Source of the DNA: Chloranthus sessilifolius
Lineage: Eukaryota; Streptophyta; Magnoliopsida; Chloranthales; Chloranthaceae
Direction: 5' to 3'
Assembly (NCBI GenBank): GCA_021018995.1
Contig: CM037598.1
Span: 66,916,671 to 66,980,670 of the forward strand
DNA length: 64,000 nucleotides
A program made the position numbers and the translations under genes. The notes beneath the pieces are model-generated. The model did not search any database. It was given only the letters and a program-made list of their open reading frames with translations, and was not told where the DNA came from. Below, in pieces: positions 1 through 58,549 of the stretch; position 1 is the stretch's first letter, and each line of letters starts with the position of its first letter.

Positions 1-81
1 CCCCAAAGGTCAAGGTGGTCAACAAGTCAAACCTTAAATACGAACTTCAGGGCAAAATACAATAGTCACTGTTCATATGCC

Positions 82-286
82 TGGCGCAACTATTAGTTAT
101 GCCAGGCAAATGCACAGTAAAACAGTGCAGACCAGTGCTGGAAGTTGTCTCGCGAGGGTGGGGCCCACATTTAAATCTAGCGCAACTATTAGTTGTGCCA
201 GGCTTATAAATAGAGGGGATTGGCCTGACGCAACTATTAGTTGTGTCAAGCAAATTTTATTACTGGCGCAACTATTAGTTGCGCCA
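82..286. repeat. Four 23-bp palindromes in the D LTR
   Basis: Copies lie at 82-104, 178-200, 226-248 and 264-286. The perfect form (264-286) is an 11-base arm TGGCGCAACTA, one central base and the exact reverse complement of the arm. The other three differ by one to three bases. Six more copies occur in D at 3063-3178 and 38087-38205. None is seen in A, B or C. Confidence 0.9.
203..213 (+). promoter_or_regulatory. TATA box on the antisense strand of the D LTR
   Basis: TTATAAATAGA is a textbook plant TATA box on the plus strand, antisense to D. It lies between the second and third palindromes of the LTR cluster. It points into D's interior, where the plus-strand accessory genes lie. Promoter function is inferred. 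Confidence 0.45.
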
Positions 287-689
287 AATCCCTAGGGGGG
301 CGCACTTGACTTTATCTTCCTACCCTCCACACCCAGTTTGCCATATCTTTTGATGTATACGTCCGATTGGGGCAATTTTTAGACCGTCAGAAAGTTGACG
401 ACCTCTACTCTTCAATGGTATGGGACTTGATCACCGTAGAGGGCCGTAGCCAGTTTCGGTGTACCCCTCCTCATCCATTATCTGAGAAGGTTAGGTTTGG
501 GGTTTTGAGGGGTTCTAAGGGTCGAGATTGGTTTCTAAAGGTTTGAGGTAGGTTCTTAAGGGATCTAGGGTGATTCCTAAAGGTTTGGGGTGATTCCTAA
601 GGGTTCCATACATGCCATCAAAAGCTCAGAATTGCACCTCTCTCGAAAGGTGTTTCGATCGGGCCTTGGGCCAAATTTAGGTGTCTATA

Positions 690-2815: not shown

Positions 2816-3062
2816 TTTGGCTTCTCTGTCGGGATTTTGGATTTTTATTTTTTTAAAATTTTTTTTATGTGTAGGATCGAGGTGCTTATTGACCTCGGTC
2901 CGTCTTTATTTTAGCACGGCTTCCTCGGGGAGTCGATGGATGATCGAAATGCCGTCTTGGGAGTGTGTGCATCGGCCGTGGGTGATAAAACCAATAAGGA
3001 AGAAGTGGGGAACCAGCCTTCCTATCTAGCTCGTACCAGGCCCAAAACCCGGCCTAAGTGCC

Positions 3063-3178
3063 TGGCGAAACTAATAGTTGCGGGTCACTAGGGGCCTCAA
3101 AATAGCCTGGCGCAACTATTAGTTGCGCCAAGCAAGTGGAGGGAAAAAATTTGCCTGGCACAACTATTAGTTGCGCCA
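3063..3178. repeat. Three palindromes upstream of the PMD gene in D
   Basis: Copies at 3063-3085 (decayed), 3108-3130 (perfect) and 3156-3178 (one mismatch) of the same 23-bp palindrome as in the D LTR. They are followed by a pyrimidine-rich leader-like stretch and a possible splice donor at 3349. The arrangement places the cluster at the presumed promoter of the plus-strand PMD gene. Confidence 0.88.
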
Positions 3179-3531
3179 GGCTTGGCTGAGGAAAATTTCT
3201 CCCCCCCTTCTTCTCCTTTGAAACCGAAAGCCGCCTCTTCCTAAGGTTTTCTCTCATTGTCCCTACGTGCGCTCCATTGCCGTCGTTTTACTTGTGTGGA
3301 TCAGTCGTTGGCTCATGCTAGACCAAAGATCCATCATCTTTCGCAAGGTAACCATCAAAACCTATTTCCTTTGATTTCTCTTGCTTTTCTTTATAAATAA
3401 GATGATGATCTTGCACTTTTAGATGGGAAATGGTTCATTTTTATTGTTTTTATGCTTATTGACGATGTGTGGATGGTTCCTTATGATTAATGCTTTATTA
3501 TTATTTTTTTTGTAGTTTTGTGGGTTTATTG

Positions 3532-3586: not shown

Positions 3587-3859
3587 GTTTTTATATGGAA
3601 TGGTTTTTTTTTTGTATTATGTTGTTTACACATATTTTTTTGTTTTTGTGTTGTTGTTTTGTTGTTGTTTTTTTTTGTAAAAGGATTTTTTTTATTTTTG
3701 AAGGAACCTTGTTTTGTTTTTCTTTTCTTTGTTTTTTTTTTTTTTAAAACTTTTAAACAAAGTAAAAAGGGGCTTTTTTTTTTAAAGGATTTGTTTAAAT
3801 GAAGTAAAAGGGTTTTTTTTTTGTTTTTATTTTTTTGAAAGAATTTTTAAGGTAAAAGG

Positions 3860-4700
3860 CTCTTTTTCTTTTGAAAGAATTTTCCTAACAAAGTGAAGAG
3901 GATTTTATTTGCTTTTTCTTCTCTTTTTTGTTTTGAAAGAATTTTTCTCTAACAAAGTGAAAAGGATCTTATTTTCTTTTTGTATTTTGAAAGGAATTTT
4001 CTATCAAAGTGAAAAGGATTGTTTTTTTTTTCTTTTTTTTTTTTGAAAGAATTTTCCTAACAAAGTGAAAAGGATTTTATTTTCTTTTTATTCTTTTTTT
4101 TCTCTTTTTTTTTTGTTTTGAAAGAATTTTCCTAACAAAGTGAAAAGGATTTTATTTGCTTTTTCTTCTCTTTTTTAGTTTTAAAAGAATTTTTCTAACA
4201 AAGTGAAAAGGATTTTATTTGTTTTTTTTTCTCTTTTTTTGTTTTGAAAGAATTTTCCTAACAAAGTGAAAAGGATTTTATTTGCTTTTTTCTCTTTTTT
4301 TTACTGAAAGAAATTTCCTAACACAGTGAAAAGGATTTTATTTGCTTTTTTTTTCTCTTTTTTTTGTTTTGAAAGAATTTTCCTAACAAAGTGAAAATGA
4401 TTTTATTTGCTTTTTCTTCTCTTTTTTGCTTTGAAAGAATTTTTCTCTAACAAAGTGAAAAGGATCTTATTTTCTTTTTATATTTTGAAAGGACTTTTCT
4501 ATCAAAGTGAAAAGGATTTTATTTGCTTTTTTTCTTTTTTTGTTTTGAAAGAATTTTCCTAACAAAGTGAAAGGATTTTATTTGCTTTTTTCTCTTTTTT
4601 TTTTTGTTTTGAAAAAACTTTTCTACCAAAGTGAAAAGGATTTTTTTTGCTGAAAGAACTTTTCTACCAAAGTGAAAAGGATTTTATATATATTTTTCTC
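3860..4700. repeat. Tandem array with unit of about 50-70 bases, caaagtgaaaagga core
   Basis: About 14 copies of a T-rich unit containing GAAAGAATTTTCCTAACA, then AAGTGAAAAGGATTTTA and a C/T-rich tract. The array lies inside a possible 5'-UTR intron of the PMD gene (donor near 3349, acceptor CAG near 4803). Confidence 0.85.
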
Positions 4701-4804
4701 TTTATTTTTTTGAAAGACAAAGTAAAAAGGTTTTTTTTTGAAAGAACTCATTGCACGTGTATCCTTGTACTTGACCAGATGTGATTGCCTTTTGTTGCCC
4801 CAGT

Positions 4805-6603
4805 ATGTTAGGCGGTGATGAGCACATTTTCGAGGAGGGACCCGAGATCGTATATGGCCCGCGGGGGGAGGAATTTGTCTGAGTGGAATGGAAAGCGGGC
4901 CTGTGGCTTGAAATGCAGGGCAAGGCTGCCCGGGTCGGCCTCCTTCACCAACAGCACACCCATATTTCAAACTTTGGGATAGTGGGCAAGGTAAAAAAGA
5001 GGTTCAATTTATTTCCATTATGCACTTTTTTTGCTTTGCCTCTTTGATCTGATGTGCATTTCCTTTGGGTGCAGGACTTGCCTAATATTGTATTCCGCGG
5101 GGGGTGGCTCGACTTTCACGAGTTCTACCTCTACGTCCCCCCCGTGGTGAAGGTCTTGTTGGAGCAGGTGGGCTTTGGGGAGTTCTTGTCCTGTCCCGCC
5201 ATGAGGGTCGATGCTACCTATTTGAAGGCCCTGATCGAGAGGTTTCGTCCTGAGACCATGACATTCCATATGCCGTACGTCGAGATGGCGTTGACGCCCG
5301 TCGATTGGGCCATGATCACTGGTATCAGGGTAAGGGGGATACCGATATCCAATCTAGCGGTACCGAGCCGGGAGGACATTACTTGACAGATTGGGGCCTA
5401 TCCTCCTCGCGGGCAGACCCATGACATAGAGGTCAAGATGTCTTGGCTGACCTCCCTCTTTTCACCTGATGAGTTGGTAGACTTGGGTCAGCCAGATAGG
5501 GCGCTCTATATTACGCCAGAGCGGGCGATTGTCCTAGCTCGCATCACCCTCTTACTCCTGCTGGGCAAGAGCCTTTTCACAAATACCAGCGGGAGCCGAG
5601 TCAGCCTGGCCTTGTTGAGCGTGATGGACAATTGGGGAGATGTCCCCAGGCACGACTGGGGAGGGGCAGGGTATGCGTGATTGATGTACAATTTATCTCG
5701 GGTTGTGACCGGGGATTCGAAGTCTGCCGTGGGGTTTTGGGCTGCCCTGGAGGTAATTCCGCATCCCTTTGCCTTTATCAACTCTTTTGTTGCATGACCT
5801 TATATGTGCTATTGACCTGCTCGTATGTGTTATTTCTTTTTTTTTTTTTTTTAGGTAGGGATACCACCACTTCCACCTGGCGCCGCCCTTCACTCAAGGC
5901 GCCACTATCCTCTCGCGCCAAGAATCGGCATTAAGCCCGACTGTAATGGGCCTAAGGTCCCAACTTGATTTGATGATCCCCGACAGGTAACAACTCTTCA
6001 ACCTTTGTTTACTTTTAGCTTGGAAATTTCCTTTGACTGAGGTGTTGCTTGCTTGGTTTCTCTCTTTTTTGACTTGAGCAGATCCTCCCCGATCCGTACC
6101 TGGCATCCCCCTTCCGGAACCAAGCAGCTGTGGGTGCCTCCCGTTTATTCAACAATTTCTGAGTCGTGTTCTTCTATGGAGCGTGGGCTAAATTTTATTA
6201 TCTGGGAGAGCAAGTGGTGCACCAGTTTCAGGGCCATTATGCCATAACCGTGGACCCCCAGGCGGATGTCTAGTATCCTGCTGGTAGTATCGAGGAGCTC
6301 ACAGTGGCTTTCTTCAACAATGGGCTCCCTATCCATGCTCTTCATGTGCCTGGGGACTATCATCTCTGGTATGAGTGCCTACCTCATCGATTCATGTTGT
6401 CGCGCTTTGTCCCTAGCACCAATTTTCGGGCATTTGGCGGCCTGCTCGGTCAGGTAATTTATCTTGGCTTGGATTAGTTTCTTTTATGCTTTTATTCAAT
6501 TTTTATCCCTTCTAAATGGATCTCTATTTTGTTCACAGTTTGCCCTAGGAGACGATTTATGATGGCGGAACCCAGTCTTGGCCGATATGTGGGTGGATCC
6601 CTC
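4805..6603 (+). pseudogene. Plant mobile domain (PMD) gene of D, exons 1-5 (5' part)
   Basis: Accessory gene antisense to D's gag-pol. Exons read in one continuous phase: 4805-4990 (ATG at 4805), 5075-5752, 5855-5986, 6082-6453, and 6539 up to the A insertion at 6603. Donors are GTAAAA, GTAATT, GTAACA and GTAATT; every acceptor is AG. Exon 2 contains the PMD signature (Pfam PF10536), including RFRPETMTFH and the following acidic/hydrophobic block, residues about 115-165. No frameshift is seen across the five exons, but seven in-frame stops occur at 4880, 5384, 5678, 5966, 6160, 6271 and 6560, several probably former Trp codons. The gene resumes at 37112 beyond element A. PMD proteins occur in plant MULEs and gypsy elements and in host silencing factors of the MAIN type; the role here is unknown. 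Confidence 0.82.
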
Positions 6604-6877
6604 TGTTATTAAGGTAAAAATGTCACTTTTCACCCTATAACCTAACCATTGATAGACCTGTGAGCACACTAATAAGCTCTTGTCAAGTGTATTTTGTAGA
6701 CAGCAATAAAAGAAGGTACTAATATAGAAAACCACTCAAGAATGCCCAAAAAGGAGCTATCTCTCAGCACAGGACAAACCTAGCAACAACACACCAGAGG
6801 GAAGCACATCACTGGACCCTTGGAGCGTGTAGCTACAACAGGGCAAGGCCAAGGAAGTGAAAACATGCTGAGAATGT

Positions 6878-7356
6878 CCTATCGATTGGTCACCTGAAGA
6901 CGTCGATAGGAGCTGAAAGCAAAAAAAGGAAGAATTTGTGTAGTTGAAGAGGTCTTCGATAGGATCTGTAGGTAGAAAAAGGATGAATTCGTGTGGATTA
7001 AGGAGTTCGATAGGATCTCAGAACCTATTGAGTAGCTGAAAGGAAAGAAGAAACCATCCTATCGAAAGCCTGCCTGAAGAGTTAATAGAACCTATCGAAG
7101 GGTGATTGAGCCTTTCGATAAGACTGAAAGCAAACCTATCGAAATGACGGAATGAACAGCAGAACCTGTCGAAATGGTTTTTCAACCTGTCGAAGAGCTT
7201 CTCCAACCTGTCGAATACTCCAAACCAAGGACTGAGAAGGCTGGAACTCCAAGTGAAGATTCATCTTTTCGAAACCTATCGAACGGATCTGAGGATCTAG
7301 CGAAAGGACCAAAATGCTCGATTCCAACCTGTCGAAAGCTTCCTGAACCTGTCAAA
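6878..7356. repeat. TCGA-centred motif array in the A 5' LTR
   Basis: About 16 copies of TTCGATAGG or its reverse CCTATCGAA, with CCTGTCGAA variants, in both orientations at irregular spacing. Examples are 6901-6910, 6955-6963, 7091-7099, 7186-7194 and 7274-7282. The same motif recurs in the 3' LTR (35300-35780) and between integrase and the last ORF (14565-14700 and 32490-32650). Confidence 0.88.
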
Positions 7357-7565
7357 ATCATGTGCAAAACTTCTCAGAAATTCAATTGAGCACACGTTGT
7401 ACTTCATTGACCCGCTGCACACAACCTGAGAACTTGGTGACCGACATGACGGTTCCAGAAGATGCCCTAGAAAGCCCTAACCGACCCACGTGTTTTAACA
7501 AAACTCTAACAAACTCTGACGACCTTCTAAAAGGAATTTTTGGCAAAAAAAATAGAGGAGAGAGC

Positions 7566-7577
7566 TACATATAGAGA
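7566..7577 (+). promoter_or_regulatory. TATA-like site of the A 5' LTR
   Basis: ACATATAGAGAT here corresponds to the better site TATATATAAA in the 3' LTR (35981-35990). It lies downstream of the motif array and about 500 bases before the stem-loops. The 5' copy is probably weakened by mutation. Confidence 0.45.
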
Positions 7578-8061
7578 TCCCTAATTGCCATTGGGGGAGA
7601 TCGAGATCTGAGCCAAAATTCTGGAGATTAGCACCTGCAGAGCAATTCCATTTCTCTCCTTTATCCCAACCATGGTTGGCTAAGTCCCTTGGAGTAGCGA
7701 GGAGCGAAGTTAGATCTGTAATTGGATGAGGTTAAGAGTGCTACTGTAGGTTCCTAGCTGCACAGACTACAGATCTGAGAGTATTTCTATTGTAAAGTGA
7801 CCTTGTTTGCAATGATAATGCTGTTTTTAATGCTTTAATTAGATTTAAATTTCCTTTGGATCCATTGGGTGATCGATCGGATTTGTGTAGAGGAGTTGTA
7901 GATCAGCTCACCCACTTAACTGGTAGACCTCCTGGATACCATCTGATCTCCCTGGATCTGATGCTCCTGTAATTCCTTGAGTTTGTGACCTAGGAATTGC
8001 AGCATCTGTAGTGGTTTTAATTGTTCTAATTGAGGCTCTGGCTCTGTAGGAGATCCCTAGG

Positions 8062-8202
8062 ATGGTCTGTGACCATTAAAGTGGACAGATCATAACCTTA
8101 AGATAAATATAAGCTCAGGCCTCAATTAGATTCATCTGCTGCAATCCATGGATTCGATAAAGTCTATAGGATGGTCTGTGACCATTAAAGTGGATAGATC
8201 AT
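8062..8202 (+). other. Two conserved RNA stem-loops in the A LTR leader
   Basis: Hairpin 1 (8062-8093): outer arm ATGGTCTGT, a GA bulge, inner arm CCAT, loop TAAA, inner arm GTGG, outer arm ACAGATCAT. Hairpin 2 (8171-8202) has ATAGATCAT as its last arm. The 3' LTR has both (36477-36508, 36586-36617) and C has one (45799-45830). Base changes between copies keep pairing through G-U wobble. The stem-loops lie within the presumed transcript; their function is unknown. Confidence 0.6.
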
Positions 8203-8699
8203 AGCCTTAAGACCAGGTGGATCCTATGATTTGGAGTGGAACTTCTACCCTGCAGCTATGCTTATAGCTAGCGAGGGAATTGTGTGCTCTGAACCTCTGT
8301 AGCATGATTAATTGAATCTGATTTCAGTGAAAACCAACCTCCAAGCTACTCTTCTTCATTTGCTGCTTTTTACTCCCTTTCCCCCGCAAGATCTAAGCTC
8401 CTAAACTCGATCCAATTTAGTTTATGTTTAATTGTAGCTTAGTTTAAGTGACAATCCATTCCAAACTTCTCCCCTATCTTTTAGCTAAATTAGTAATAGT
8501 TAGGGTGCCAGATCTGACACAGATCTAGAGATTTGTCATATTTCTAAACAACCTCCCTATGGACATTCCCTTACCTTTCTTTTAAAGTTTGCTACAACAG
8601 ATCTTGAATACTTGCAGGTCTGTATGAGTGTGTCTGCCTAGTTTTATTGTTGATTTTAAACCTCATTTGAGGGTAGGCAAACACACCCCAACAAGTTTT

Positions 8700-8717: not shown

Positions 8718-9128
8718 GGCAGTTTAGAAATTGATAGATCTATGTTTTGATCCTAGATTTGTAGTTTTTGTTTGATTTTACTAACTACATTTGTAAGTGG
8801 TGTTGTTTTTCAGTAGTTTGTGTGCAGTTCATCAGATCTAAGGCTACCAGTGAGAGGAGAATTGTGCTAGAGATTGCTCTGTAGTTTGCATCCCTCTACT
8901 CCCCTGTTATTTTTCAGATCTGTTGATAATTTTTGTTAGAATAGTTAGAAAATTTGGTTGATTCTATTTGTTGTGTGTTTGGATCTGTTCTGCATTCGGA
9001 ATCTGAGTGTTGTATATTTGGTAGGAGAACTCTGCAACCTCAGATTATTCCACTAAATCCAGAGGTGGAAAGACTTCTCATATCCAGACCAACTACACCC
9101 ACTTCTGTTACATTTGATTATGTAGAAA

Positions 9129-10650
9129 TGGGTGAGCAACATCAGCCAAGAACCCTTAAGGAGTTTAATGCACCAAGGATCTACAATTCCCCCCTTCTGC
9201 ATTCAATTCCTAGCTGCTCAAGAAAACCATGAGATAAAATCATCCATCATTCAAATGCTGCCCTCATTTCATGGCCTGACCAAAGAAGACCCCTATAAGC
9301 ACATTGATGAATTCTTGGAACTGTGCACTACATTTAATATCACATATTTGGGGGAGGAGGCCACCAGGATGAGACTCTTTCCTTTTTCATTAAAGAATAG
9401 AGCCAGGACCTAGTTGTCTTTGCTTCCACCTAACAGTATTCAGTCCTGGAGTGATCTCCAATGTTAGTTTCTGGCCAAGTTCTTTCCTATGTCAAAGACC
9501 AGCCAATTGAGGAAGGGTATCATCTCTTTTACCCAAGATCCAACTGAAGACTTTCATCAATCCTGGGAGAGATTTAAAGAACTCCTCAAGAAATGCCCCC
9601 ACCATCAACTCCCTGAATGGCAATTCGTTCAAAGCTTTTATCAGAGAATTGATGCTAAAAGCAGAGATATGATAGATGCCTCCTGTGGTGGCACCTATCT
9701 CCATAAAACTGCTGAGGAGGCATGGGAGCTCTTTGATATCATTAGTGAGAACCCTATGCAAAGGAAAACCTTAGCAAGAGATCTAGAGCCTCCTAAATTG
9801 GTGAAAGAGAACACCTCAAGGGGAAAGATATATGAAGTGAGTGTGCCAAGTGAGTTGGAAAGGAAAGTGGACAGCTTAACTCTGAAATTTAATAGGCTGA
9901 TGGGAGCAATGCAGTCACCTGTGGCTGCTAGAGTAGAGGAGGCATGTGCCATATGCCAGTCCCCTGCTCATCCCGTGGAAGAATGCCCATCTGCTGACCA
10001 ATTTCTTAATTTTCTAACAGAGCATGTGGCTGCAGCTCAGTCTTATGGGCAACAACCTGCTGCTGGGTATCAATGGAAGAACCACCCAAATCTGAGGTGG
10101 AGACAAGATGGATACCCCAGCTAGTCGCAGCAGCAGCCCCAGCAGCCCATGCCTTACAGAAATGCTCAGCCCTATTGAGAAGGTTATGCCCCAAGACCTC
10201 AGTATCAGCAACCCATGGCCCAACCTGTAGCTCCTCCTGTGCAGCAATCTGCACCCCCTCCAGCTGTGAGAACACCATCCTTTGAGGAACAAGTTTTATC
10301 TTCAGTACAGAGCTTGAACACCTTGACCCAAACTGTGCACTCTCACAATCAGAGCATCAAAAAGATAGAGGACCAACTTGGTCAGTTGTCTGATGCTCTG
10401 ACTAGAAGAGAGGGAGGAAGGTTGCCTAGCTAACCACAGGACAATCCACGAAGGCAATTTGTAGTGGGTGAAGTTTCCTCCACTTATGAGGAAGCTAAAT
10501 CTGTTACAACTTTGAGAAGTGGTAAGTTAGTGGACAACCAAGTGGGTGTGAGCCTGTGAGGAACTTGGAGGAGGAAAATGAGGTAATTTCTACTAGCACA
10601 CAATCAATACCACCAATGGTGGACTTGCAGGAACAATTAGCTGTGAATAA
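9129..10650 (+). pseudogene. Element A gag (Athila-type)
   Basis: Encodes the capsid/nucleocapsid polyprotein that packages element RNA. The likely start is the ATG at 9129, matching C's gag start at 46631. A one-base frameshift near 9190 moves the frame. The capsid core follows (FHGLTKEDPY and LRLFPFS-type blocks, about 9270-9410), then a stop at 9411 (TAG, Trp in C). The C-terminal part (9489-10124) carries a CCHC zinc knuckle, spacing C-X2-C-X4-H-X4-C, at about 9948-9990. The Gln/Pro-rich tail (10125-10650) is broken by further stops and shifts. Decayed but clearly gag. Confidence 0.87.
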
Positions 10651-10705
10651 AGAGGATAATGAGGATCCTTAAGAAAAGAAAAAACTCAAAAAGAAAGAGA
10701 CCCTA

Positions 10706-11640
10706 TTGGCTAAGGCTGCAAGTGAGGGAGCAATCCCACACTTGCCATTTCCTAAGGCACTACAGGCACCTTCCCCTTTTGATAAAGGGCAAGAAAAAAT
10801 TAAGGAAATGATGGAGACTTTCAAGCAAGTAAAGATCAATCTGCCTTTACTTGATACCATTAAACAAGTCCCAGCCTATGCCAAATTCTTAAAAGACCTG
10901 TGCACCCATAAAAGACAGTCTATGATACACCTATCCAAGAAAGTCTTTTCAGCAGAAAAAGTTAAGCATGTCCTGTCCATTGCAACTCCCCCCAAACTTC
11001 AAGACCCTGGACTCCCCACCATCCCCTACATCATTGGAGATCATACCATTGACAAAGCTCTATTAGATCTGGGAGCCAGTGTAAATTTGCTTCCATATTC
11101 AGTATATGAGAAGCTGGGCTTGGGCAAATTAAAGCCCACGCATGTTGTTCTCCAGCTGGCTGACAGATCTGAAAGGAAACCTGTGGAGATAATCGAGGAT
11201 GTGTTGATTGGAGTTAATAAATTCTTTTATTCTGCTAAATTTTTGGTGCTGGATATGGAACCAGGTAGGAATGCCACCTCCATACCTGTGATTCTAGGCA
11301 GACCCTTTTTGGCCACAGCTAATGCTTGTATTCAATGCAGGTATGGAATCATGGAAGTGTCATTTGAAAATATGAAGGTCAAATTGAATGTATACAACGC
11401 AGCCAATCAACCTCATCCTGATGAGGATTATTTTTCTCTAGATGTAATAGATGAGGTTCTCCAGGAAAATGTGAATATGCTGCTCCATGGTAAGGAATGG
11501 TGTAATGAATTAGCCGAAGTACGGAAAGAAACAGAGGTAGAGCAGGGTCCCACCTCTGAGATCGAGCATGTGAAACTTGTCTGTTCTGAAGCTCCACCAG
11601 CACAGCACCATCCATGGAGGCCTACTCTGTTACCCCTACC
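10706..11640 (+). pseudogene. Element A protease region
   Basis: Retropepsin-type aspartic protease that would cut the gag-pol polyprotein. The active-site motif is LLDLGASVNLLP (about 11057-11092), so the usual D-T/S-G is D-L-G, as in C. A second conserved block, VILGRPFL, lies near 11290. The frame is open from 10706 through the protease into RT (stop 12401-12403), one of the least damaged stretches of the element. A Pro-rich linker (11580-11690) follows. Confidence 0.85.
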
Positions 11641-11649
11641 ACCCCCCTC

Positions 11650-47817: not shown

Positions 47818-49035
47818 GTGAATTTTCATAGCCAGAGCATAAAGAAGATTGAAGAAACATTGGGACAGCTTTCAAATACTTTGGCAAAAAGAGAGGAAGG
47901 AAAGTTACCCAGCCAACCTTTGAACAATCCCAAAGGACAGTTCATGGTTGGCGAAGCTTCTAATTCACATGAAGAAGTAAAAACTGTTACCACTTTGAGA
48001 AGTGGAAGAATCATAAATAACAAAGTGGGTACTGAAGAAGAAAAAAATGAGGAAAATGATAAAGATATGCAGCAAGAGCAGCATAGTGATGGCAGTGGGG
48101 GTGCTGATGGACCTCAGAAAAATCAAAAAAATGAAAAACAAAAAATCCAAAAAGTTGCTGAAAATGTTTCCAAAGCTGTAGATGAAGAACTAGTTCCTCA
48201 TTTACCTTTTCCTCATGCAATGAAATCTGTATCCCCTTTTGATAAAGGGAACACAAAAATAGATGAAATGATGGAGACTTTTAAGCAAGTCAAGATAAAT
48301 CTACCTTTGCTTGAGGCAATCAAACAAATTCCAGCATATGCAAAATTTTTGAAAGATGTTTGCACTCACAAAAGACAATCTAGGATACAGTTGTCGAAGA
48401 AGGTCTTTGCTGTGGAAAGAATTAATCAGGTGTTATCCATTGCCACACCTCCTAAACTTCAAGATCCTGGAATCCCCACAATCCCTTGCATTATTGGGGA
48501 ACATACCATTGAAAAGGCTTTATTAGATCTGGGTGCTAGTGTCAACCTACTTCCATATTCTGTATATGAGAAACTAGGTTTGGGAGAATTAAAACCCACT
48601 CATGTGGTGTTACAACTAGCAGACAGATCTGAAAGGAAGCCAGTTGGAATGATTGAAGATGTATTGGTAGGAGTAGATAAATTTTTCTATCCTGCTGATT
48701 TTCTAGTTTTGGACATGGAACCAACCAAAAGCAAAACTTCCATCCCTGTCATTTTGGGAAGACCATTCACAGCTCTGACAAATGCTTGCATCCAATGCAG
48801 GTCTGGAATTATGGAAGTCTCTTTTGGAAACATGAAGGTAAAATTAAATGTTTATAATGCAGTCACACAGCCTCAATTCAGTTCTGAAGAATGTTTTCAT
48901 GTTGATTTATTGGATGAACTGGTAGAAGGGACTTTTCAACAGTTTCTGCAGTGTGAAGAGTTCACCACAAATGTTGAAGATGCTTGGGGAAATTCTGAAG
49001 AAGAAACAGTTTGTATCTCAAATTCGAGGAAATAA
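47818..49035 (+). pseudogene. Element C gag end and protease
   Basis: In the same frame as the gag C-terminus. An acidic/Gln-rich linker (EEKNEENDKDMQQEQ) leads to the conserved FDKGNTKIDEMMETFKQVKI block (48238) and the retropepsin motif LLDLGASVNLLP (about 48522). VILGRPF lies near 48750. The active site D-L-G matches A. The frame stops at 49033 and shifts into RT. Confidence 0.87.
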
Positions 49036-50500
49036 ATGTTGTGCAAGAACTCATAATCATTCAGCAAGTTTCTCTTCTTGGAAACCCGCTACTCTTCCCC
49101 TTCCCCAAACAGATAAGGTACCTTTGTTACCTTCTTTTCTCGATTCCCACGATTTAGAACTAAAGCATTTGCGGAAAATTTGAAATATGTGTTTTAGGAA
49201 ATCATAAATCATTGCGCAATTATTTCTTCCTCCCTCACAAAGGAGCAAGAGGAAGAGGCTGTTGGTTGTTTGAAAAGAACATAGAAGGGCAATTGGTTTG
49301 GACTATTGCTGATTTGGGAGAATCGATCCATTTGTTTGCATGCACAAAATCCATTTGGAAGAAGATGCAAAGCCTTCTAGGGAAATGCAAAGGAGGCTGA
49401 ACCCTCATATGCAAGAAGTGGTCATGAAAGAGGTTGTTAAGTTGTTGGATGCAGGGGTCATTTACCCCATTTCAGATTCAGCTTGGGTGGCACCTACACA
49501 AGCGGTACCTAAGAAATCTGGGATCACTGTTATGACATGAGACTGACTGGTGAGCTTATGTCAACCAGGACAAACAAGCTGGGTGGAGAGTCTAATTGAT
49601 TCTGAGAAAATTAAATGCAATGACCAGAAAAGACCATTTCCCCCTTCCATTCATTGATCAGATTTTAGATAAGCTAGCAGGAAAAGCGTATTACTGTTTT
49701 CTTGATGGTTACTCTGGTTATAACCAGATTCCTGTGTACCCACAAGATCAGGAGAAGACCACATTCACTTGCCCTTTTGACACTTTTGCCTATAGGAGAA
49801 TGCCTTTTGGTCTTTGTAATGCTCCTGCTACCTTTCAAAGATGCATGTATTTCATTTTTTCAGATATGATTGACCAATTTATGGAGATTTTTATAGATGA
49901 TTTTTCAATCTATGGAGACAGTTTTTCCCAGTGTTTACATCATCTCAAATTGGTATTGCAAAGATGTGAAGAAACCAATCTAGTTCTGAGCTGGGAAAAG
50001 AGCCATTTCATGGTCACCCAAGGCATTGTCCTTGGCCATGTTATTTCTCACAAGGGCATTGAGGTGGACAGAGCAAAAATTGATTTAATTGCACATTTAC
50101 CACCTCTCAAAACTGTTAAACAAATCAGAAGTTTTCTGGGATATGCTGGATTTTATAGAAGGTTCGTCAAGGACTTCAGTAAAATAACCAAACCTCTTTG
50201 TCATTTGCTGTGTCAAGATGTCCCTTTTGTTTTCAATAATGAATGCATGAAGGCTTTCGAATTCCTAAAAAACTGTTTGATTTCAGCTCCAATATTGCAG
50301 TCTCCGAATTATTCATTACCTTTTGAACAGATGTGTGATGCATCAGATTATGCTTTAGGAGCTGTCCTTGGACAGAGAAAAGAAAAGCTGCCGCATGTCA
50401 TAGCTTATGCCAGTAGATCAATGATTGATGCACAGCTCAATTACACAACAACTGAGAAGGAGCTGCAATTGTTTTTACTTTAGAAAAATTCAGGTCATAT
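49036..50500 (+). pseudogene. Element C reverse transcriptase
   Basis: Heavily shifted at the start (49036-49340), then readable: HKIHLEEDAKPSREMQRRLNP (49343), a damaged block near 49545-49600 where the VCIDYR-type motif is lost, FLDGYSGYNQIPVYP (49698), MPFGLCNAPATFQRC (49800) and the catalytic FIDDFSIYG (about 49891). The thumb/connection region runs to MCDASDYALGAVLG (50333), the start of RNase H. Confidence 0.87.
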
Positions 50501-50806
50501 GTCTTGGGTTCACAAATAGTGGTGTTCACTGACCACTCTGCTTTGAAATACCTTCTGTCTAAGAAGGATACCAAACCAAGATTAATCAGGTGGATCCTCC
50601 TATTACAAGAATTTGATTTACAGATCAAAGATAAAAAGGGAGTGGAGAATGTGGTGGCTGATCACCTTTCTAGAATTCTAACTGCTGATATTGATAGGCT
50701 GCCTATCAATGAATCTTTCCCTGATGAGCAACTTTTTTCCATTAGTATACACATTCCTTGGTTTGCAAACATAGTCAACTTTTTGGCTACTGGAAGAATT
50801 CCTTAA
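50333..50806 (+). pseudogene. Element C RNase H
   Basis: Starts at MCDASDYALGAVLG with the first catalytic Asp. A frameshift near 50470 separates EKELQ from [23 protein letters not shown] (second part, 50490-50806). Unlike A, it keeps the full [20 protein letters not shown] end. A stop at 50804 lies before integrase. Confidence 0.82.
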
Positions 50807-50818
50807 CATTGGAATAAA

Positions 50819-52020
50819 ATGGATAAAGATCTTTTCTTCACAAAGGTTAAACATTTCATCTGGGAAGATCCTCATCTGTTCAAGAGTTGTGCAGACCAAA
50901 TAATAAGAAAATGTGTCCCTGACCAAGAATTTCATAGAATACTTTCTATGTGCCATGAACAGGCCTGTGGAGGTCATTTTAGTGGAAATAAAACTGTTGC
51001 AAAGGTTTTGCAGTGCGGATTTTATTGGCCTACACTTTTCAAAGATGCTCTGCAGCATTGTAAGTCTTGCCAAAACTGTCAAAAATTGGGCAACATTTCC
51101 AAGAGAAACTCAATGCCGTTACAGCCTATTTTGGTAGTTGAGTTGTTTGATGTTTGGGGGATAGACTTCATGGGTCCTTTTCCTCCTTCCAATGGGAATA
51201 ATTTCATTTTAGTAGCTGTGGATTATGTATCCAAATGGATTGAAGCCACAGCCACTAAAACAAATGATCACAAAGTGGTTCTTAAATTTCTTAAGGATCA
51301 CATTTTTCCAGTTTGGTTTTCCCGAGCCATTATAAGTGATGGGGAAGCCATTTTATAATAAACATTTTGAAATTTTATTGAAAAATACTACTGTGACTCA
51401 TAGAGTAGCCACTCCATATCATCCACAAACCGGTGGACAAGTGGAGATTTTCAATAGAGAAATCAAACATATTTTGGAAAAGACCTGAAGAAGGATGAGA
51501 AAGGATTGGTCCTTTAAAATTTGAACGATGCATTATGGGCATACAGATGCCTTATAAAACCCCAATTGGTATGTCCCCATTCAGGTTGGTCTATGGCAAA
51601 GCATGCCATCTACCAGTAGAGTTAGAATATAAAGCTTTTTGGGCCATTAAAACATTGAACATGGATCTAACTACTGCTGGTAATGACAGGAAACTGCAAC
51701 TTGCTGAGTTGGAGGAGCTGAGAATGGATGCATACACAAATTCAAGATTGTACAAAGAGAAAGTCAAATCTTTCCATGATAAAAATTTATTAAGAAAAGA
51801 GTTCACAGCTGGCTCTAAGGTATGGTTATTTAACTCAAAACTCAAGTTTTTCCCAGGAAAGCTGAGATCCAGATGGGAAGGGCCATATACTGTCATTCAG
51901 ACAGCCCCTTCGGGAGCTGTTGACATCCTTGATCCAAGTAATGGAAGAATCCTGAAAGTAAATGGTCAGAGGCTCAAACCATGCATTGACATCTGTCATC
52001 ACGAACCTCCAAAAATCTAA
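50819..52020 (+). pseudogene. Element C integrase
   Basis: The HHCC zinc-binding domain is intact: [13 protein letters not shown] (about 50950) and [11 protein letters not shown] (51061). The core has Asp in WGIDFMGPF (51158), a second Asp in the IISDG block (51332) where a frameshift occurs, and Glu in GQVEIFNRE (about 51437). A further shift near 51490 leads to [22 protein letters not shown] (51550-51615). The C-terminal block [19 protein letters not shown] (51872) is complete. The stop is TAA at 52018. Confidence 0.87.
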
Positions 52021-52104
52021 TGGTGGATAACTGTACATTATATTTTCATTTCATAGTTTTTGCTTAGTTTCTTTGTTTCTGCTTTTATTCATGATTTGTC
52101 TCTT

Positions 52105-52400
52105 TTCGCATGGTTTAAATATGCTCCAAGTTAAGTCGCAAAGTAATAATTCTCTTTTCGCAAAGTTCAATTTACTTTTCGAAAAGACTTTGGATATGTA
52201 ACGAGCTGCTCGAAAGCAAAGATTTGCTTTTCGAATAGTTGGTTATGAAGTTATTTTCTTTTCGAAAAGATGTTTCTGAAGCTCTTAACTTTTCGAATGG
52301 TACTGATGCCATTCACAGTTGTCTAAAGGTCTATTTTGGAACTTTTCGAAAACTTATAAAGAACTTTGCGAAATTAACTCTGAGTATATTTAAACCCTTT
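52105..52400. repeat. Second TCGAA motif array of C, ahead of its third ORF
   Basis: About eleven sites, including two full CTTTTCGAAAAG palindromes (near 52175 and 52259) and several CTTTTCGCA or CTTTGCGAA variants. A TATA-like TATATTTAAACC (52386-52397) follows. The arrangement parallels A's array before its last ORF. Confidence 0.87.
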
Positions 52401-52702
52401 TGAAGTAGGGGTTTCATATTCGAAGGCTTTCTGAAGAGCGACCTGTTACACGGAAACCCTACTTCGTTCTTTCCTTGCGCAATTTGAGAAGCTTGCTTCA
52501 TTTTTCTTCACCTTTGTTCGATCATTTGCATTTTCAGAGAAGGATTTTAGCTTCTAGTCTGGGGGATTTCTGCAAGCAAATAACTCGTTCAATTAAAAAC
52601 CCTAGATCTCGGTATTGCTCTGCACATTCTCTCTGTTTATCATTTGAAAATTTTCAATTTGTGTCAGCATTTGTTGTGGGCACTTTCATACATCAATTTA
52701 GA

Positions 52703-54910
52703 ATGGGAAAAGCAGAGAAATCGTTGGCTGCCATGTTCTCAAAATCCTCTGCTAAGAAAGTTAGCAAACCTACCCCAAAGGGAAAAGCCAAACCTTCAGC
52801 CAAAAGAAAACTATCTATGGATAAAGCGGATAGGGTGGAAAAAGGGAAGAAAGTGAGACATGAGGAACCCATCTCTACTGCTGCTAGTCCTGAGCCTGAG
52901 CTTCCTCCTCTGCCTATACATTTGGTACTGCCAAACCCATTCATTGAAGCTCAGAAGCTAATTCCTAAGCTGATTGTGGACGAAACTTTTTTCGTCAACA
53001 AATCGGAGTGCCTGTTATCTTTAAGATACATAAGGGATGCCGCACTAAGCAATATCTTTACCCCTTTGCCAGAGAAAATTTACCCACGAATGGTGAAGTT
53101 ATGGTACCAAAACCTAATCAAGGTCATTGAAAGTGATGCTGATGTCCCTACCCTGGTTATCTTTATTGATGATTGCGATCTTACGGTCACATTTGAAGAC
53201 ATAGGGAATGCTTTGGGGATACCCTTCCAATTTGATCCTGCTGGTCCATTGGCTGCTCCAGAAATAGCCTTCTTTAGAGAAATGACTACACATTTAACTC
53301 AAGGAATTGTGGGCACTGGGCAGACCAACATGAGGAGAGACCTACCCCACCAATTTCTATTGATGGACTCCATTTTGAGGGAAGTTTTATGTCACCGCAC
53401 GACCAGAGAGGAGAACACCAATTTTGGAGGCGCTCTTTCACTTTCAAGGGCAGTTTTTCAATGCCCCTATGTTAATTTTTTGAAGCCATGGTGACATTAG
53501 TGCTAAGTTGAAAAAGGAGCGAAATTGGCCTCCCATTTGGTAGATTGATCCTGACCCTCCTCGAGCCAAGTTTGACATTGATAATGAGGAACCATTTGAA
53601 GTCATTGCTCCTCACACTTTTGGGAAAAGGCATGGACTACAAGCCAAGCCATCTTTGAGAAGGTTGAGAGGAAGGTGAACCTACACTGCACTGAATGAAC
53701 TGAATGAACTCCCTTAGAACTGCACCTACACTATTTCAACCCGGCAGCCTCTTAGAACCGCTTTGTTAGCACTGTGGTGACCACTCTTTTCGCACCACTT
53801 CTTCAAACTCCTTCCATGGTGACCAGTGCACCACTTTTGAGGAAGTTGGCCTTTCACCTCCTCCCCCCAGCCACTTCACCTATCCCAGCTGTCCCATCTC
53901 CCATACCCTCCATTATTCCAATTAGAGACTCCCCCTCTACACCAACCACTCCAACCATACTCACCCCCCCAATCTCTCCCACCAATGCCCATGTTTTAGC
54001 TCTAGACTTTATTGCCCCATCCCCCGACACTCCTATGCTCCAAAGCCCCTCCAATTACCCTGCTCATTCAACCCACACACCTGAAGTATCCCACACACCT
54101 GAACCTAAGCCTTTCACTACAGAGGCTTATTCTTCCTTAATGGGATCTATTTTTGCAACCATGGGACATGACCCTACCCCTATACCTGACCCTCCTCATT
54201 TCACCCACTTACCTACTTCTCCCTTTCCGTCCATTGCACCTCCACCCTCCACTTCAGTTGTACCAGTCCCTGCTATGCCCACCTCTCCCCCACCTGCCTC
54301 TATTACCCAAATACTTGCCTACCTCCAATCCATCCAAGCTCAACTTCAAATCAACACACAAAACTAGTCTGTGACCAATGACCTGCTCCAAACCTTAGCC
54401 TCCATATCCCACACAACCACCATTACCCCTTTACTTACTGTTGATTCCCATGCTACCCAAACTGAACCTAAAGTCCCTCTGGTTGCATCCCCTTCACCAC
54501 TCCCCACTTTCTCTGAGCAAGCCACTCAGACCGACCCTGAAGTCCTCCTTTTGGACACTTCTACCCCCCCTCCCACAGCTGGGATACCTTTGGTCCCCTA
54601 CCATTCCATTCCCTTCCCGATTTGCCTCACCCTCTCAAGAGCCATGGAAGAAAATCCCTATATCTGCAGAGATGTTCTAAAAGGGTTAGCTGATTTACAA
54701 GCCTACATTCGCACCCCTTATGAAAATCAGATTAGGAAGTTGGAGTTATTTATGAAATTTGAGAGAGAGAAAATGAAGGACTTGCTGGGTCAAACCTTTC
54801 AGATGGTTAGGAGTGAGCAGCACAAGGTGACCATGTTACAAGCACAGCTTGACCAGAAAAAACTAAAGACCATTAGACTTAGCAAGTACATTGGCCTCAC
54901 CAAAAGATAA
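52703..54910 (+). pseudogene. Third ORF of C: basic N-terminus, transposon-protein-like domain, proline-rich linker, coiled coil
   Basis: One frame runs from the ATG at 52703 to the stop at 54908, broken by a stop at 53492, others between 53495 and 53773, and one at 54365. Order: Ser/Lys-rich basic N-terminus with a likely nuclear signal (KGKAKPSAKRKLS, then KGKKVRHEE, about 52780-52865). Then a globular domain (52910-53490) with YPRMVKLWYQNL and a DLTVTFEDIGNALGIP block, resembling the putative plant transposon protein family (Pfam PF20167). Then a long Pro/Ser/Thr-rich linker and a charged C-terminal coiled coil (about 54730-54905). Two ATQT-E/D-P motifs lie at 54452-54469 and 54521-54538. 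No signal peptide or membrane span is seen, so an envelope role is not supported. Confidence 0.72.
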
Positions 54911-56755
54911 AATCGAGGAATAATACCTTTGGCGCAAAACACTATCCGGAGAAAGCTCAATCAAGTTCGGACTCCAATCTTGATTCTAGTTACGATTTTG
55001 ATGACTCAGTTCGAGCCAATTGAACCAACTTATGATCTGATTTTGACCCCAGTTATTAAGATCACATTGTACTTATACGTATGTTATGAGTTTGTAATAT
55101 AAATTCTAGTTTTCTTGTGTAATTCTATGTGCATTTTACGTCATCTTCTTGGCATCATAATGTTTTGTTTTCTTTCTTGCTTCTATCATTTTCTACTTTG
55201 GACGATGTGGACCACTGCTCTCCTTTGGTTTGGGGGTATGGCAAATGTCAATAATCAATAAGTAAGTTAATGCTTGATGCGACTTATGATCGGTAGAACT
55301 TTTGTAACTGCAGTAATTTCACACCTGTTGTTTTGAAAAATGAGAAGTTAAAACTTTTTAAATTAATTTCTAGTGTAATTCTAATACTTTCATGAAATGA
55401 ATGTCGAAAATTTCAAAAGAAAATTGATGTTTAGTAAACTTAAAAGAGAGAAAAGCAGATGATATACCTCGAAGTTGATAGAAAACCACACCCAAGTGAG
55501 ATTTGGACTGAAATGTATTCTTTGGAGGTATGAATTGGCAATTTTTTACGCTCTAGGATTTATTGAACACCTTACTTATCACTAGAAGTTACACATATCC
55601 AAGTCAAAATAGCTTGACATCAATCATGATATTAAAGACATGATGTAAGGCCTCCTTTTGGACATTTGAACTTACAAAGCCCCACCTTTTAAAGCGCCCT
55701 TGATACACACCATTTGAGCTTTATAAATCAAAGATTTCTTTGAAACCTCATCAACCTCATTTAGCCTAACCCTCACTCGAGAATTCGAAGGTAAAGGAAA
55801 GAAAGTCAAGAAAGGTGAGTTGGGTAATAGTTTGGTAAAAGAAAAAAAAATAATTGAAGGCAATGATGTATCAGCAGAAGAAATGTGGCATTCCAGTCAA
55901 TGTTGATTTGAAAAAAAAAAAAAGAGAAGTCATTTCATTGGAAGTTTGAAAAAGAAAGAGAAAAGATGGCCACTTTGGCTCTGAAATTCAAAGAAGAAGA
56001 TGAAATTGTTGAATAAAGAAGGTGTCCATACCACCTCCTTACCTTGATGACTTCTCAATTTTGAACTCCATTCCAACCCTTTATTCTTGATAAATTTCAC
56101 CCATAAGCCACATTACAACCCAAGTTAAAGTCCTTCTTGATCAATGATGGATTGAGTCACATGGAGATAAGGATTTGTGTAATCTATGGTGAAAAAAGTA
56201 GTAAATTCAAAACTAAAAGCAATGCCTATGCTCACCTTACAATCCTATTTGAGGAATGTAATTGCTCTTGAGTACATGTGAAATAGTACAACCCTCATAT
56301 TTGCATGGTGAGTGAAAACCACGGTGAGAGTTGAGTTTGAAATCAAATTATTTGGGGTAACATCAAAGCTGAATTCTCAAATAAAAGGCAAGCTTTTCAT
56401 TAATTTTCTTGTAAAAACTTTTGACACCAATTGAGTGAATGGTAAAGGAATTACAAGAATTTTAGTTTTGAAGCGATGTTTTCTTGAAAATCTTCTTACA
56501 ACTTTGTGATGCGGTGTGAATAATCGATTGGATGAAAGTTTGCTTTATGAGCGCATTGATCTTAAGCGATTTATTGGAGAAGTTTGTGGGTACCTTCACG
56601 AAAACCCTCGGAGACTTCACTCCTCCACTAGGGATCACCTAGGGGTTTAAAAGGCTTGTTGCATATGCTAAATGCAAGTGCTCCCTACAAAAGTGGCTTT
56701 TACTTTATTTTAATTTTGTCTTTGCTCAGGACTAGCAAAGCTTAGGTTTGGGGTG
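54911..56755 (+). other. Conserved 3' non-coding tract of C
   Basis: No gene. It matches A's 33430-35097 in patches: the purine-rich TTTGGTTTGGGGGTATGGCA at 55224-55243, AGAAGTCATTTCATTG-type sequence, and the strongly conserved 56583-56755 ending in the polypurine tract AGGTTTGGGGTG (56744-56755). Confidence 0.65.
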
Positions 56756-58549
56756 TGTTGAGAACTGGAAAATACCATTTTCACCCCTTAACTTGAGTCT
56801 TGATAGACCTTTGAGAGAACTAAATAAGTGTTTTAAGTGCTTGTGTTTGACTAACAATAAAGACAGCTTAACCATAAAAGCGGAAAAGTGCCAAAAGATG
56901 ACAATCCATGTCAATCCAAAGAAGAAAGAGAAGAAACAACCTCACTAGGCTGGAAGGTCCGAATTGAAGAGGCAAAGACACTGGTCTCAACCCAGGAGAA
57001 GAAGTAGGGAGCAATTGAGCGGAAAAATGCACTCACAGTACTTTTTGTAAAGAACTGAAGCTCGTAAAGAACACGAAACTCTGAAAGAACAAAAAACTCA
57101 AACTTAGCTTTGAAGAGCATCGAACTCTTGAAGAGATGATTACCTTTTCGAAAGAAGAAAACTCAATTGAGCAGAACCTTGCGAAAAGAGCTTGAGTTAC
57201 AACACCTTGCGAAAAGCCCTAAACTGCGAAAAGGTATTACGGAGGTTCTCGGCTTTTGCAAGGGCAATTCGATAATCCGTTTCATGCGTCCCAATGCATT
57301 TAAAACCTAGGGACATTCAGATTCTAAGCATGAAGCGAAGGCATATTCCACCCCACGTGAGCACCCAGAGATGAAATAACTTGGCGGGAACTTCTAGAAA
57401 CTCTAACAAACTTTCAAAATGCATAACAGAATTGATGCCTTTTTCACTTGATTGGCTGAACCAGATCGAGGAATTCTGATTGGCCAGAACAGATCTGGAT
57501 CCTCGTGCTCGACTACCATTGGTCAATACTGGATCCGAGCACTTCGATTGGTTAATACACATCCGAAAGTGGACTTGGGGAAAACTATAAATAGGCAAAC
57601 CATTTGCCCAATTTGGGCATCCAGATTTTGAGTTTCATTCCTATTCCCCCATTTCCAAACCAGATAGTTTGTCTAAAATCCCTGTAATAGCTTCACTTTG
57701 ACTTGCAATTGGGAGCTGTGAGACATTTCTGTAATTCAAAAGAGAGTTGTATTCAAGACTACAAATCTGAGAGCTGTTTAAGTTGTGCTTTGTAATTGTA
57801 ATGGTGGATTTGAAAAGGTTGCTGTAAACCGTATATTCTCAATTGGACTCATGTTAAGGGTTCCCTCTGATCTCCTTATTGCATTAGACTCCTTTAGATT
57901 TACTGTTTTTCATGCAACTTCCCTTGATTCATTAATCCTGTGAGAATTAGTGTTGGTAACCTAATCTCTCATGACATTTGTAGTGATGCTTCTTGTTCTA
58001 AATTAAGGCTTTGGATTAAAGACTATTGGATGGTTTGTGGCCATTAGCCATAAGCTTAAACCTAATCCTTGAATTAGATTTATTTCTCTTACATCTGCGC
58101 TTGTAGCCAGATGAAGATTGGATCATCTCTCAGTTGAGCTGCAGTCATTCTCATTAGATTTCAAGGACCAAATCAAAGTTAGATATTATTTCTCCATTTT
58201 TTATAAGTTTACCTCAAACGTTCCCCCAACTCAGATCTGGATCATTTAGTTTAACTTTTACTTTTATCATTTAGTTAATGTGACAAATTCAACCTCCCAT
58301 CTTATGTGCTTTCTAGATAGGATAAGAGGCCAGATCTGGTAGCTCAGATCTGGAGGTTTATGTTGCATTTTAGACAAATTCTCTGTGGACGATCTTTCAC
58401 TCACTTACATTTAAAACTTGCTACAATTGGCCCTGATCTTGCAGGCTAATTCACTTCTACCTGTGCTGATATTTTTTTTAGTATAATTTAGCTGTTGCAA
58501 ACCTGTTTTCAAAACACACATAAATCAAGCACACTAAGAGGAACCAACA
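56756..58549 (+). repeat. Element C 3' LTR
   Basis: Starts TGTTGAGAACTGG after the purine tract and ends GAACCAACA before the target duplication. It carries many 1-3 base deletions relative to the 5' LTR in the motif array region and a 16-base deletion near 58047 that destroys the stem-loop. TATA box at 57585-57595. Confidence 0.93.

Follow-up and report, generated by a model that had tools for sequence, protein, structure and literature searches.

The window, that is, the whole stretch of DNA analysed here (64,000 nt from Chloranthus sessilifolius), contains four nested plant Ty3/gypsy elements, A to D, of which A and C are Athila-like and B and D are of the Tat/Ogre type; the class assignment of A, C and D is based on DNA similarity and on RT/RNase H pieces, the integrase having been scanned in B alone. 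Element D lies on the minus strand and is interrupted by both A and C, and B sits inside A. The pol part of D (41211-44484, minus strand), which is cut by C, includes RVT_3 at 42468-43157, and the gag-protease side is located at 58550-61735 (minus strand), beyond which only about 80 bp of the 5' LTR are left (62060-62137). On the plus strand, the 5' and 3' LTRs were located at 6681-8693 and 35100-37111 for A, at 14726-16290 (right end approximate) and 30728-32408 for B, and at 44485-46334 and 56756-58549 for C. The flank present in the window is CACTA-like.

In B, RT and RNase H are followed by RVT_3, H2C2 and rve, which is the Ty3/gypsy order and not that of a Ty1/copia Sirevirus polymerase. 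The additional RNase H between RNase H and integrase that is a Tat/Ogre trait was thus represented in B by RVT_3 ahead of H2C2/rve, and RVT_3 was also detected in D. The sequence TTTTTGGCGCCG(C/T)TGCCGGGGA, which we take to be the Athila-type primer site, was found after both Athila-like 5' LTRs.

Two accessory genes of D are encoded on the plus strand, antisense to its pol. The first one, encoding a PMD protein (4740-6680), is broken, cut by the insertion of A, with a possible remainder at 37112-37720. PF10536 matched this gene at 5048-5383 (E 1.1e-9) and, below the cut-off, at 5387-5677 (E 0.034), and no Pfam match was obtained for 37112-37420 of the possible remainder. The second gene (38344-39846) is DUF7745-like and contains stops; PF24924 matched positions 38344-38661 with an E of 9.5e-5 and 22 bits, under the cut-off of 26, and the Pfam matches of its later pieces were none or at chance level. 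The PMD domain was detected in D only, and B retains a remnant of the other gene, a DUF7745-like C-terminus at 28585-28758 on the minus strand (tblastn to the D gene, 69% over 58 aa, E 8.9e-18). The third ORF of C (52703-54907, plus strand) has a basic N-terminus and is broken; its pieces gave no significant Pfam match, and its AlphaFold2 model from the single sequence had a mean pLDDT of 37.6. In A the third ORF is nearly absent, with only an ORF of 77-99 aa at its position, which did not match the two of the three C ORF3 pieces with which it was compared. Among the accessory pieces scanned, neither ATHILA nor DUF1985 (VANC-type; PMC5735166) was matched in Pfam.

Each element carries a short motif of its own, picked in all four cases after reading the arrays and compared below with first-order resamplings. 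In D, the motif is a 27-bp palindrome, CCTGGCGCAACTA-N-TAGTTGCGCCAGG, with 10 sites in three clusters: four in the LTR array (80-288; sites at 80, 176, 224 and 262, with a minus-strand TATTTAT at 212 between them), three ahead of the antisense PMD gene (3061-3180; 3061, 3106 and 3154) and three ahead of the DUF7745-like gene (38085-38207; 38085, 38133 and 38181, 48 bp apart, with TATATA at 38225). With up to 9 mismatches allowed, 14 matches were found in the window, compared to 0-2 in 10 resampled windows. The 10 D sites have 1-6 mismatches, and every match with at most 6 (n = 10) lies in the LTR or ahead of the ORFs and nowhere else in D; the other four, with 9 mismatches each, are one in A, two cross-hits on B sites and one in the CACTA-like flank.

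The motif of B is a related 27-bp palindrome, CTGGGCGTATATA-N-TATATACGCCCAG, with 11 sites, located in the 5' LTR (15108, 15155 and 15194), between the LTR and gag (17164-17331; 17164, 17211, 17258 and 17305, at a spacing of exactly 47 bp) and in the 3' LTR (31112, 31159, 31206 and 31406). These represent 11 of the 13 matches, with 0-9 mismatches, compared to 0-1 in resampled windows, and two of them (15155 and 31206), with 9 mismatches, are no better than the two matches found in D (one D site and one other). When palindromes with 10-bp arms were counted, eight exact ones were found vs. 0.25 expected (20 resamplings), seven of which are B or D sites, and 15 vs. 2.5 expected (20 resamplings) with at most one mismatched pair; with at most two, the 48 found vs. 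34.6 (maximum 47) indicate that weak palindromes are near background.

The motif of A is CCTRTCGA, found 34 times in the window, 33 of them in A. It forms arrays in the 5' LTR (6878-7355), in the 3' LTR (35297-35756) and in an internal region split by the insertion of B into a left (14556-14725) and a right part (32409-32655), the latter followed by a TATA-like string at 32771-32773 and by the short ORF from 32908/32973. When one LTR was counted, 22 of 22 copies were inside the arrays, which comprise 1,009 bp of 10,736 bp, compared to a mean of 0.04 and a maximum of 1 in 500 resamplings of these arrays. The C motif, of the CTTTTCGAAAAG type and searched as TTTTCGAA or TTGCGAAA, was found 23 times in the window and 18 times in C, with arrays in the 5' LTR (44780-45000; TATAAA at 45356), in the 3' LTR, where the array is decayed (57145-57230), and ahead of ORF3 (52102-52375; TATTTAA at 52387). 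Again with one LTR counted, all matches (15/15, corresponding to 11 places, as both strands were tallied) were inside the arrays, 612 of 12,271 bp, compared to a mean of 0.29 and a maximum of 3 in 500 resamplings.

Database searches were also carried out, in collections that seem to be plant-poor, so that the absence of relatives there is weakly informative. In the protein database, neither the initial part of C ORF3 (0/725 candidates) nor a PMD piece (0/1) had a homolog, the D palindrome had 0 matches in viral_contigs and genome_contigs, and a search with the B RT gave three pattern stretches, of which none was confirmed.

The original prediction of a family-specific short motif in the LTR and again ahead of internal ORFs in all four elements, from two lineages, is therefore borne out by the motif counts, and the places it named, ahead of the accessory genes in D, of gag in B and of the last ORF in A and C, are those observed. 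Within a lineage, the motif letters differ between families and match across the arrays of one element. The B and D half-sites have the same letter at 8 of 13 positions (rough P 0.006) and the A and C 12-mers at 9 of 12 (rough P 0.0004), with the register fixed by the centre in both comparisons, and the cores are GGCG..CGCC in B and D and KCGA in A and C. Judged from these letters, the motifs of each lineage seem to have diverged from a single scaffold, with private letters per family.

Dyad symmetry was found in the motifs of B, C and D, that of A being weakly symmetric. The spacing of site centres in the Athila-like elements was analysed by comparing neighbour gaps of 10-70 bp with uniform gaps of 12-65 bp, pooling one LTR per element, with sites called at up to 1 mismatch for the A 8-mer and up to 3 for the C 12-mer, lower-scoring C matches being excluded. 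Helical spacing was detected in C (R = 0.95 at 10.5 bp, 15 gaps) and, less cleanly, in A (R = 0.62, 27 gaps). In the 3' LTR of C, where the array is decayed, the gaps are unphased (103, 33, 28 and 17) and were left out of the pooling, and those of the A 3' LTR array are much like those of its 5' LTR array.

Both Athila-like elements are starved of CpG, with observed/expected ratios in gag-pol of 0.17 (A) and 0.11 (C), compared to 0.79-1.39 in the arrays. The sites that retain their central CpG number 26 of 30 in A and 15 of 17 in C (41/47 together), a count biased toward CG by the CG-bearing consensus with which sites were called. Inside the arrays but outside the motifs the ratio is 0.37-0.46. 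Adjacent stretches also keep CpG, both in A (0.88 after the internal array, 0.78 in the rest of U3) and in C (0.72 in the ORF3 leader, 0.44 and 0.77 in the rest of U3), so that selection on the sites and regional protection of promoters are inseparable. No CpG contrast was found in B and D. TATA-like strings adjoin the arrays in 8 of the 10 stretches searched, in AT-rich DNA where the chance level is uncontrolled, and were not found after the PMD array or after the A 5' LTR array. Taken as sequence features, the dyad symmetry (B, C and D), the helical spacing (C and A) and the kept CpG support the interpretation of the arrays as DNA-level binding sites.

In the explanation that we favour, each array would consist of successive sites, upstream of a core promoter, to which a DNA-binding factor binds, probably as a dimer. 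The same site would be reused at the LTR promoter and at the internal promoter(s) of one element, so that one factor would govern genomic and accessory-gene transcription together; the confinement of sites to U3 and pre-ORF positions (22/22 in A, 15/15 in C, 10 in D) was counted for this explanation. The helical register of the Athila sites would suit side-by-side cooperative binding on one DNA face. The factor would most likely be made by the element itself (PMD and/or DUF7745-like in D, ORF3 in Athila), creating a self-amplifying loop similar to that of foamy-virus Tas on its LTR and internal promoter, possibly with VANC-like anti-silencing. To our knowledge, no DNA binding by PMD or DUF7745 is known. 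A transcriptional role of the arrays is very probable and a single factor per family somewhat probable, whereas its encoding by the element, with PMD, DUF7745-like and Athila ORF3 proteins as candidates, is suggested tentatively. Joint control through shared sites, most likely by an element-made factor, is the best explanation overall, to which we give slightly less than an even chance. It is also possible, though less likely than not, that in two lineages of plant Ty3/gypsy elements a sequence-specific activator or anti-silencer is encoded by the element itself, PMD/DUF7745-like for Ogre and ORF3 for Athila, with CpG-containing sites at the LTR and at its own internal promoter that co-change by family and are helically phased in Athila.

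A serious possibility, short of probable, is that host transcription factors recognise the arrays as enhancers, which would be reused for both the LTR and the internal promoters; family differences would then be due to different host factors or to drift. LTR cis-boxes often bind stress-related host factors (PMC2829016), and the core common to A and C would fit such a factor, as would the presence of arrays in A and B, which bear them without an intact accessory ORF. However, letters that vary by family and yet match across the arrays of one element are less expected with a constant host protein. Arrays in families without accessory ORFs would also count against the accessory proteins that the original prediction proposed as binding partners, but A and B may be interpreted as deletion derivatives that are supplied in trans, so that they neither clearly contradict an element-encoded factor nor support it.

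Much less likely, the arrays would be functionless by-products of tandem duplication. Tandem repeats are abundant in such elements (PMC11963269), and traces of duplication were found here too: one D internal array aligns with the other (3108-3178 with 38135-38205, 83%), as does the B pre-gag array with that of the B 3' LTR (17206-17281 with 31107-31182, 81%). The spacers of B and D are mutually similar, within and between elements (0/500 shuffles as high, either strand), and similarity was also found among three 3-turn (0/1000 shuffles) and four 5-turn (0.002) spacers of C and sixteen 2-turn spacers of A (0/500 shuffles). Therefore, part of the regular spacing is due to duplication, and helical spacing is not claimed for the 47-48 bp Ogre arrays, where common descent of the spacers accounts for part of the regularity. 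In contrast, the similarity among the eight 2-turn spacers of C does not exceed that of shuffled ones (0.50) while their sites are conserved, showing that those gaps did not arise by recent tandem copying. In A and in C, the array of the LTR and that of the internal region have the same site yet do not align at E 1e-10, and duplication would not account for the central CpG kept in these CpG-starved elements.

It is less likely still that host silencing, through methylation or small RNA, targets the arrays and that they are not element tools. Targets of VANC1 and VANC6, and less clearly of VANC21, overlap those of RNA-directed methylation (PMC10398659). However, an element would gain nothing from keeping host targets at each promoter, and the A and C sites show retention of CpG instead of its loss. 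An RNA-level action of the palindromes, which would form hairpins or serve as dimerisation/packaging signals, is the least likely of all: the 27-nt palindromes could pair in RNA and packaging signals are often located between LTR and gag, as the B array is, but arrays are also present in U3 and ahead of antisense genes, helical periodicity is a DNA-level feature and the A motif is hardly self-complementary.

When joint control through shared sites is compared with known systems, a similar layout, with palindromes in the LTR and upstream of ENV, is already known in Ty1/copia Sireviruses (PMC2829016), which constitute a close precedent. Their repeated motifs (RM boxes) are CpG-rich, family-specific palindromes with a lineage core, in many LTR copies ahead of the TATA box and in further copies just upstream of the 3' ORF (ENV) where present (PMC2829016). 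The present arrays resemble them in the palindromic U3 motif of B, C and D (weakly in A) and in the further copies upstream of the 3' ORF in A, C and D. In contrast to the CGG-CCG core of Sireviruses (PMC2829016), the consensus here, in Ty3/gypsy elements, is without such a core, and arrays are also found next to the antisense accessory genes in D and before gag in B. As for the CpG-rich patches formed by Sirevirus arrays, judged here by observed/expected ratios, the arrays of A and C stand out against the rest of the element and those of B and D do not. New here are the helical spacing in C and, less cleanly, A, which the available text of PMC2829016 does not describe for RM boxes, and the CpG kept at the sites of the CpG-starved A and C.

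The analogy with VANC of VANDAL MULEs made in the original prediction is fair for family-specific motifs, those of VANDALs being short, noncoding, dense and often in tandem repeats (PMC5735166, PMC10398659), but the anatomy is closer in the Sirevirus motifs and the foamy-virus circuit. VANDALs are DNA transposons with demonstrated VANC binding, and the VANC motif YAGTATTAY is non-palindromic and in one orientation (PMC5735166, PMC10398659). This motif, in its VANC21 form, had two scattered matches in the window (13394 and 44132) and none in the arrays. Genes that need the host PMD proteins MAIN and MAIL1 have a common promoter motif (PMC7156037), in a report whose available text does not establish contact of these proteins with chromatin; its MORC1-promoter form, CATGCAGTTT (PMC9899485), had 0 exact matches in the window.

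Internal promoters for a third or antisense ORF are known from the same broad lineages, that of the ENV ORF in Arabidopsis Athila6A (PMC4977677) and that of the antisense gene23 of maize Grande, which has a nuclear product (cited in PMC7264820); a common LTR/internal motif is not reported in the accessible parts of these sources. Ogre/Retand elements, a class that D fits, carry PMD or TRP28 accessory ORFs, with PMD in 57% of Ogre, and the portions available of this literature treat tandem arrays as repeats in general, with none tied to accessory-ORF promoters (PMC6317226, PMC11963269). In literature searches, limited to partial texts, a common LTR/internal motif was not found described for Ogre or Athila, and a text search with the literal half-site string gave no paper recognised by title as dealing with plant retrotransposons.

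What the accessory ORFs of Ogre, Retand and Athila elements do has long been debated ground (PMC7264820, PMC11963269), and an LTR motif common to the accessory-gene promoter makes binding by the accessory proteins a concrete and cheap question. Should this layout, with motifs that differ, prove common to Sireviruses, Athila and Ogre, joint LTR/internal control through sites private to each family would be a general principle among plant LTR retrotransposons, and PMD proteins would be connected with the recognition of promoters. An element-encoded activator would further suggest a PMD role before plants adopted MAIN and MAIL1. Foamy viruses likewise combine an LTR promoter with an internal promoter for accessory genes, in a model of joint control by one element-made factor, although these are animal retroviruses in which Tas and its binding have been demonstrated (PMC3185757), and no homology is claimed. 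If an element-encoded activator or anti-silencer were true, the arrays would belong to a circuit in plants equivalent to that of foamy-virus Tas, and long-orphan accessory ORFs would gain a job.

The 64-kb window is made up of nested plant Ty3/gypsy elements. Element D, on the minus strand, extends from 62137 to past position 1 and carries two insertions, A (6681-37111) and C (44485-58549), and A was itself entered by B (14726-32408), which is flanked on both sides by ATACC as judged by eye. After the 5' LTR of both A and C lies TTTTTGGCGCCG(C/T)TGCCGGGGA, which we take to be a primer site of Athila type, and by sequence both elements are classified as Athila-like. B has an RVT_3 domain ahead of its integrase domains, RVT_3 is likewise present in D, and both elements are assigned to the Tat/Ogre type. 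The D LTR passes straight into gag-side sequence, so the 5' part of D seems deleted; the 83-bp remnant of its 5' LTR adjoins a DUF4218-bearing gene (62137-62946, minus strand), presumably of CACTA type. The 3' regions of A (33695-35101) and C (55400-56757) are 71% identical despite near-total loss of ORF3, the last ORF of C, from A. An Rfam snoR71 match (60 bits; 47001-47106, minus strand) lies opposite the gag region of C, and this family may partly describe retrotransposon sequence. The analysis covers one window with a single old copy per element, and in all four the accessory and pol genes examined are broken by stops or insertions. Plant relatives were not found in viral contig, genome contig and protein collections, which seem plant-poor.

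The original prediction that each element repeats its own motif in the LTR and ahead of an internal ORF was borne out in all four by site counts, cluster positions and resampling, with motifs chosen after the arrays were read. In D, a 27-bp palindrome occurs ten times in three clusters, in the LTR, ahead of PMD and ahead of the DUF7745-like gene. A related palindrome has 11 sites in B, located in both LTRs and, as four copies spaced 47 bp apart, in the interval separating LTR from gag; taken singly, two of these sites are no better than chance matches. Exact palindromes with 10-bp arms numbered 8 vs. 0.25 expected in the 64 kb, seven of them being sites of B or D; when two mismatched pairs were tolerated, 48 vs. 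34.6 were counted, close to background. The A motif, CCTRTCGA, was found 34 times, 33 of them in A, each lying either in one of its two U3 regions or between pol and the last ORF. The latter stretch is split by B, whose junctions (14725/32409) thus fall within the internal array, a putative internal promoter. The C core motif occurs 23 times, with the 18 sites in C confined to U3 and the region ahead of ORF3. With one LTR per element counted, the A arrays hold 22 sites vs. 0.04 in resampled arrays, and those of C 15 (both strands counted, 11 places) vs. 0.29. With registers set by the centre, the half-sites of B match those of D at 8 of 13 positions, and the 12-mers of A match those of C at 9 of 12, and all arrays within one element bear its private version, indicating from sequence one motif scaffold per lineage.

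Spacing is regular in C, where all 15 centre-to-centre gaps measured in the 5' LTR array and the internal array are 20-22, 31 or 52-53 bp, corresponding to whole helix turns (R=0.95 at 10.5 bp; 0/20,000 random sets as high). In A, R was 0.62 over 27 gaps (p 5e-5), and the decayed 3' LTR array of C lacks helical phasing. The order of gaps differs between the LTR and internal arrays of C, and its eight 2-turn spacers are no more similar than shuffles. Its three 3-turn and four 5-turn spacers, and the sixteen 2-turn spacers of A, resemble each other more than shuffles do; therefore, duplication contributes to the spacing. The spacers of B also resemble those of D.

Observed/expected CpG in gag-pol was 0.11 in C (46641-52020) and 0.17 in A (9121-14340), vs. 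0.79-1.39 in their arrays, where the central CG is kept at 15/17 and 26/30 sites, respectively. Values were 0.37-0.46 in arrays outside the motif and 0.44-0.88 beside them (rest of U3, last-ORF leader). As the latter stretches show, promoter surroundings in general retain CpG, through either selection on sites or low promoter methylation. No contrast between arrays and gag-pol was found in B and D. Tat/Ogre-type gag and pol are less CpG-depleted (0.55-0.74) than Athila-like gag-pol, hinting at different methylation histories.

Being repeated, symmetric, partly phased and upstream of the core promoter in LTR and interior, the arrays probably act as transcription-factor arrays. TATA-like strings occur in 8 of 10 adjoining stretches, a count uncorrected for chance. 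Internal promoters are known in these lineages, for the ENV-ORF of Arabidopsis Athila6A (PMC4977677) and for Grande gene23 (PMC7264820). We propose that a single putative factor per family would control LTR and internal promoters jointly.

D has two genes antisense to pol, PMD (PF10536, 1.1e-9) and the DUF7745-like gene (PF24924, 9.5e-5, under the curated cut-off). A tandem array (3654-4740; 17 members at >=60% identity, mostly ~63 bp apart) lies in the 5' part of PMD, possibly an intron, and VANC-bound motif arrays also occur in introns; a 108-bp array (2014-2813) lies upstream of the PMD promoter. B retains only the tail of a DUF7745-like gene (69% over 58 aa), with a tandem array of four 62-63 bp copies (28010-28254) between pol and this remnant.

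A and B bear arrays yet have no intact accessory gene. A host factor reading the arrays is nearly as likely as one made by the element. By a small margin, an element-made factor is the single most likely reading. Such a factor could work as in foamy virus, where Tas, produced from an internal promoter, feeds back on both this promoter and the LTR (PMC3185757, PMC4929722, PMC8670036), an analogy that claims no kinship. PMD as the putative factor gains some weight by analogy with Arabidopsis main/mail1/pp7l, where a promoter motif is shared by 25 of the 26 genes with lowered expression in every background examined, direct binding being unproven there (PMC7156037). That motif is absent from the window.

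In the literature consulted, no description was found of the plan in Athila or Ogre, of its use ahead of antisense accessory genes or of helical phasing. The closest published counterpart is the repeated motif of Sireviruses: 13 Ty1/copia elements bear palindromic family motifs, grouped in the LTR before the TATA box, and of 79 motif copies in the linker, 77 lie upstream of ENV; linker copies are missing from the four elements that have no ENV (PMC2829016). Therefore, the plan of LTR plus internal motifs is as such not new, and site spacing, CpG retention and the lineage scaffold are what is added here to the original prediction.
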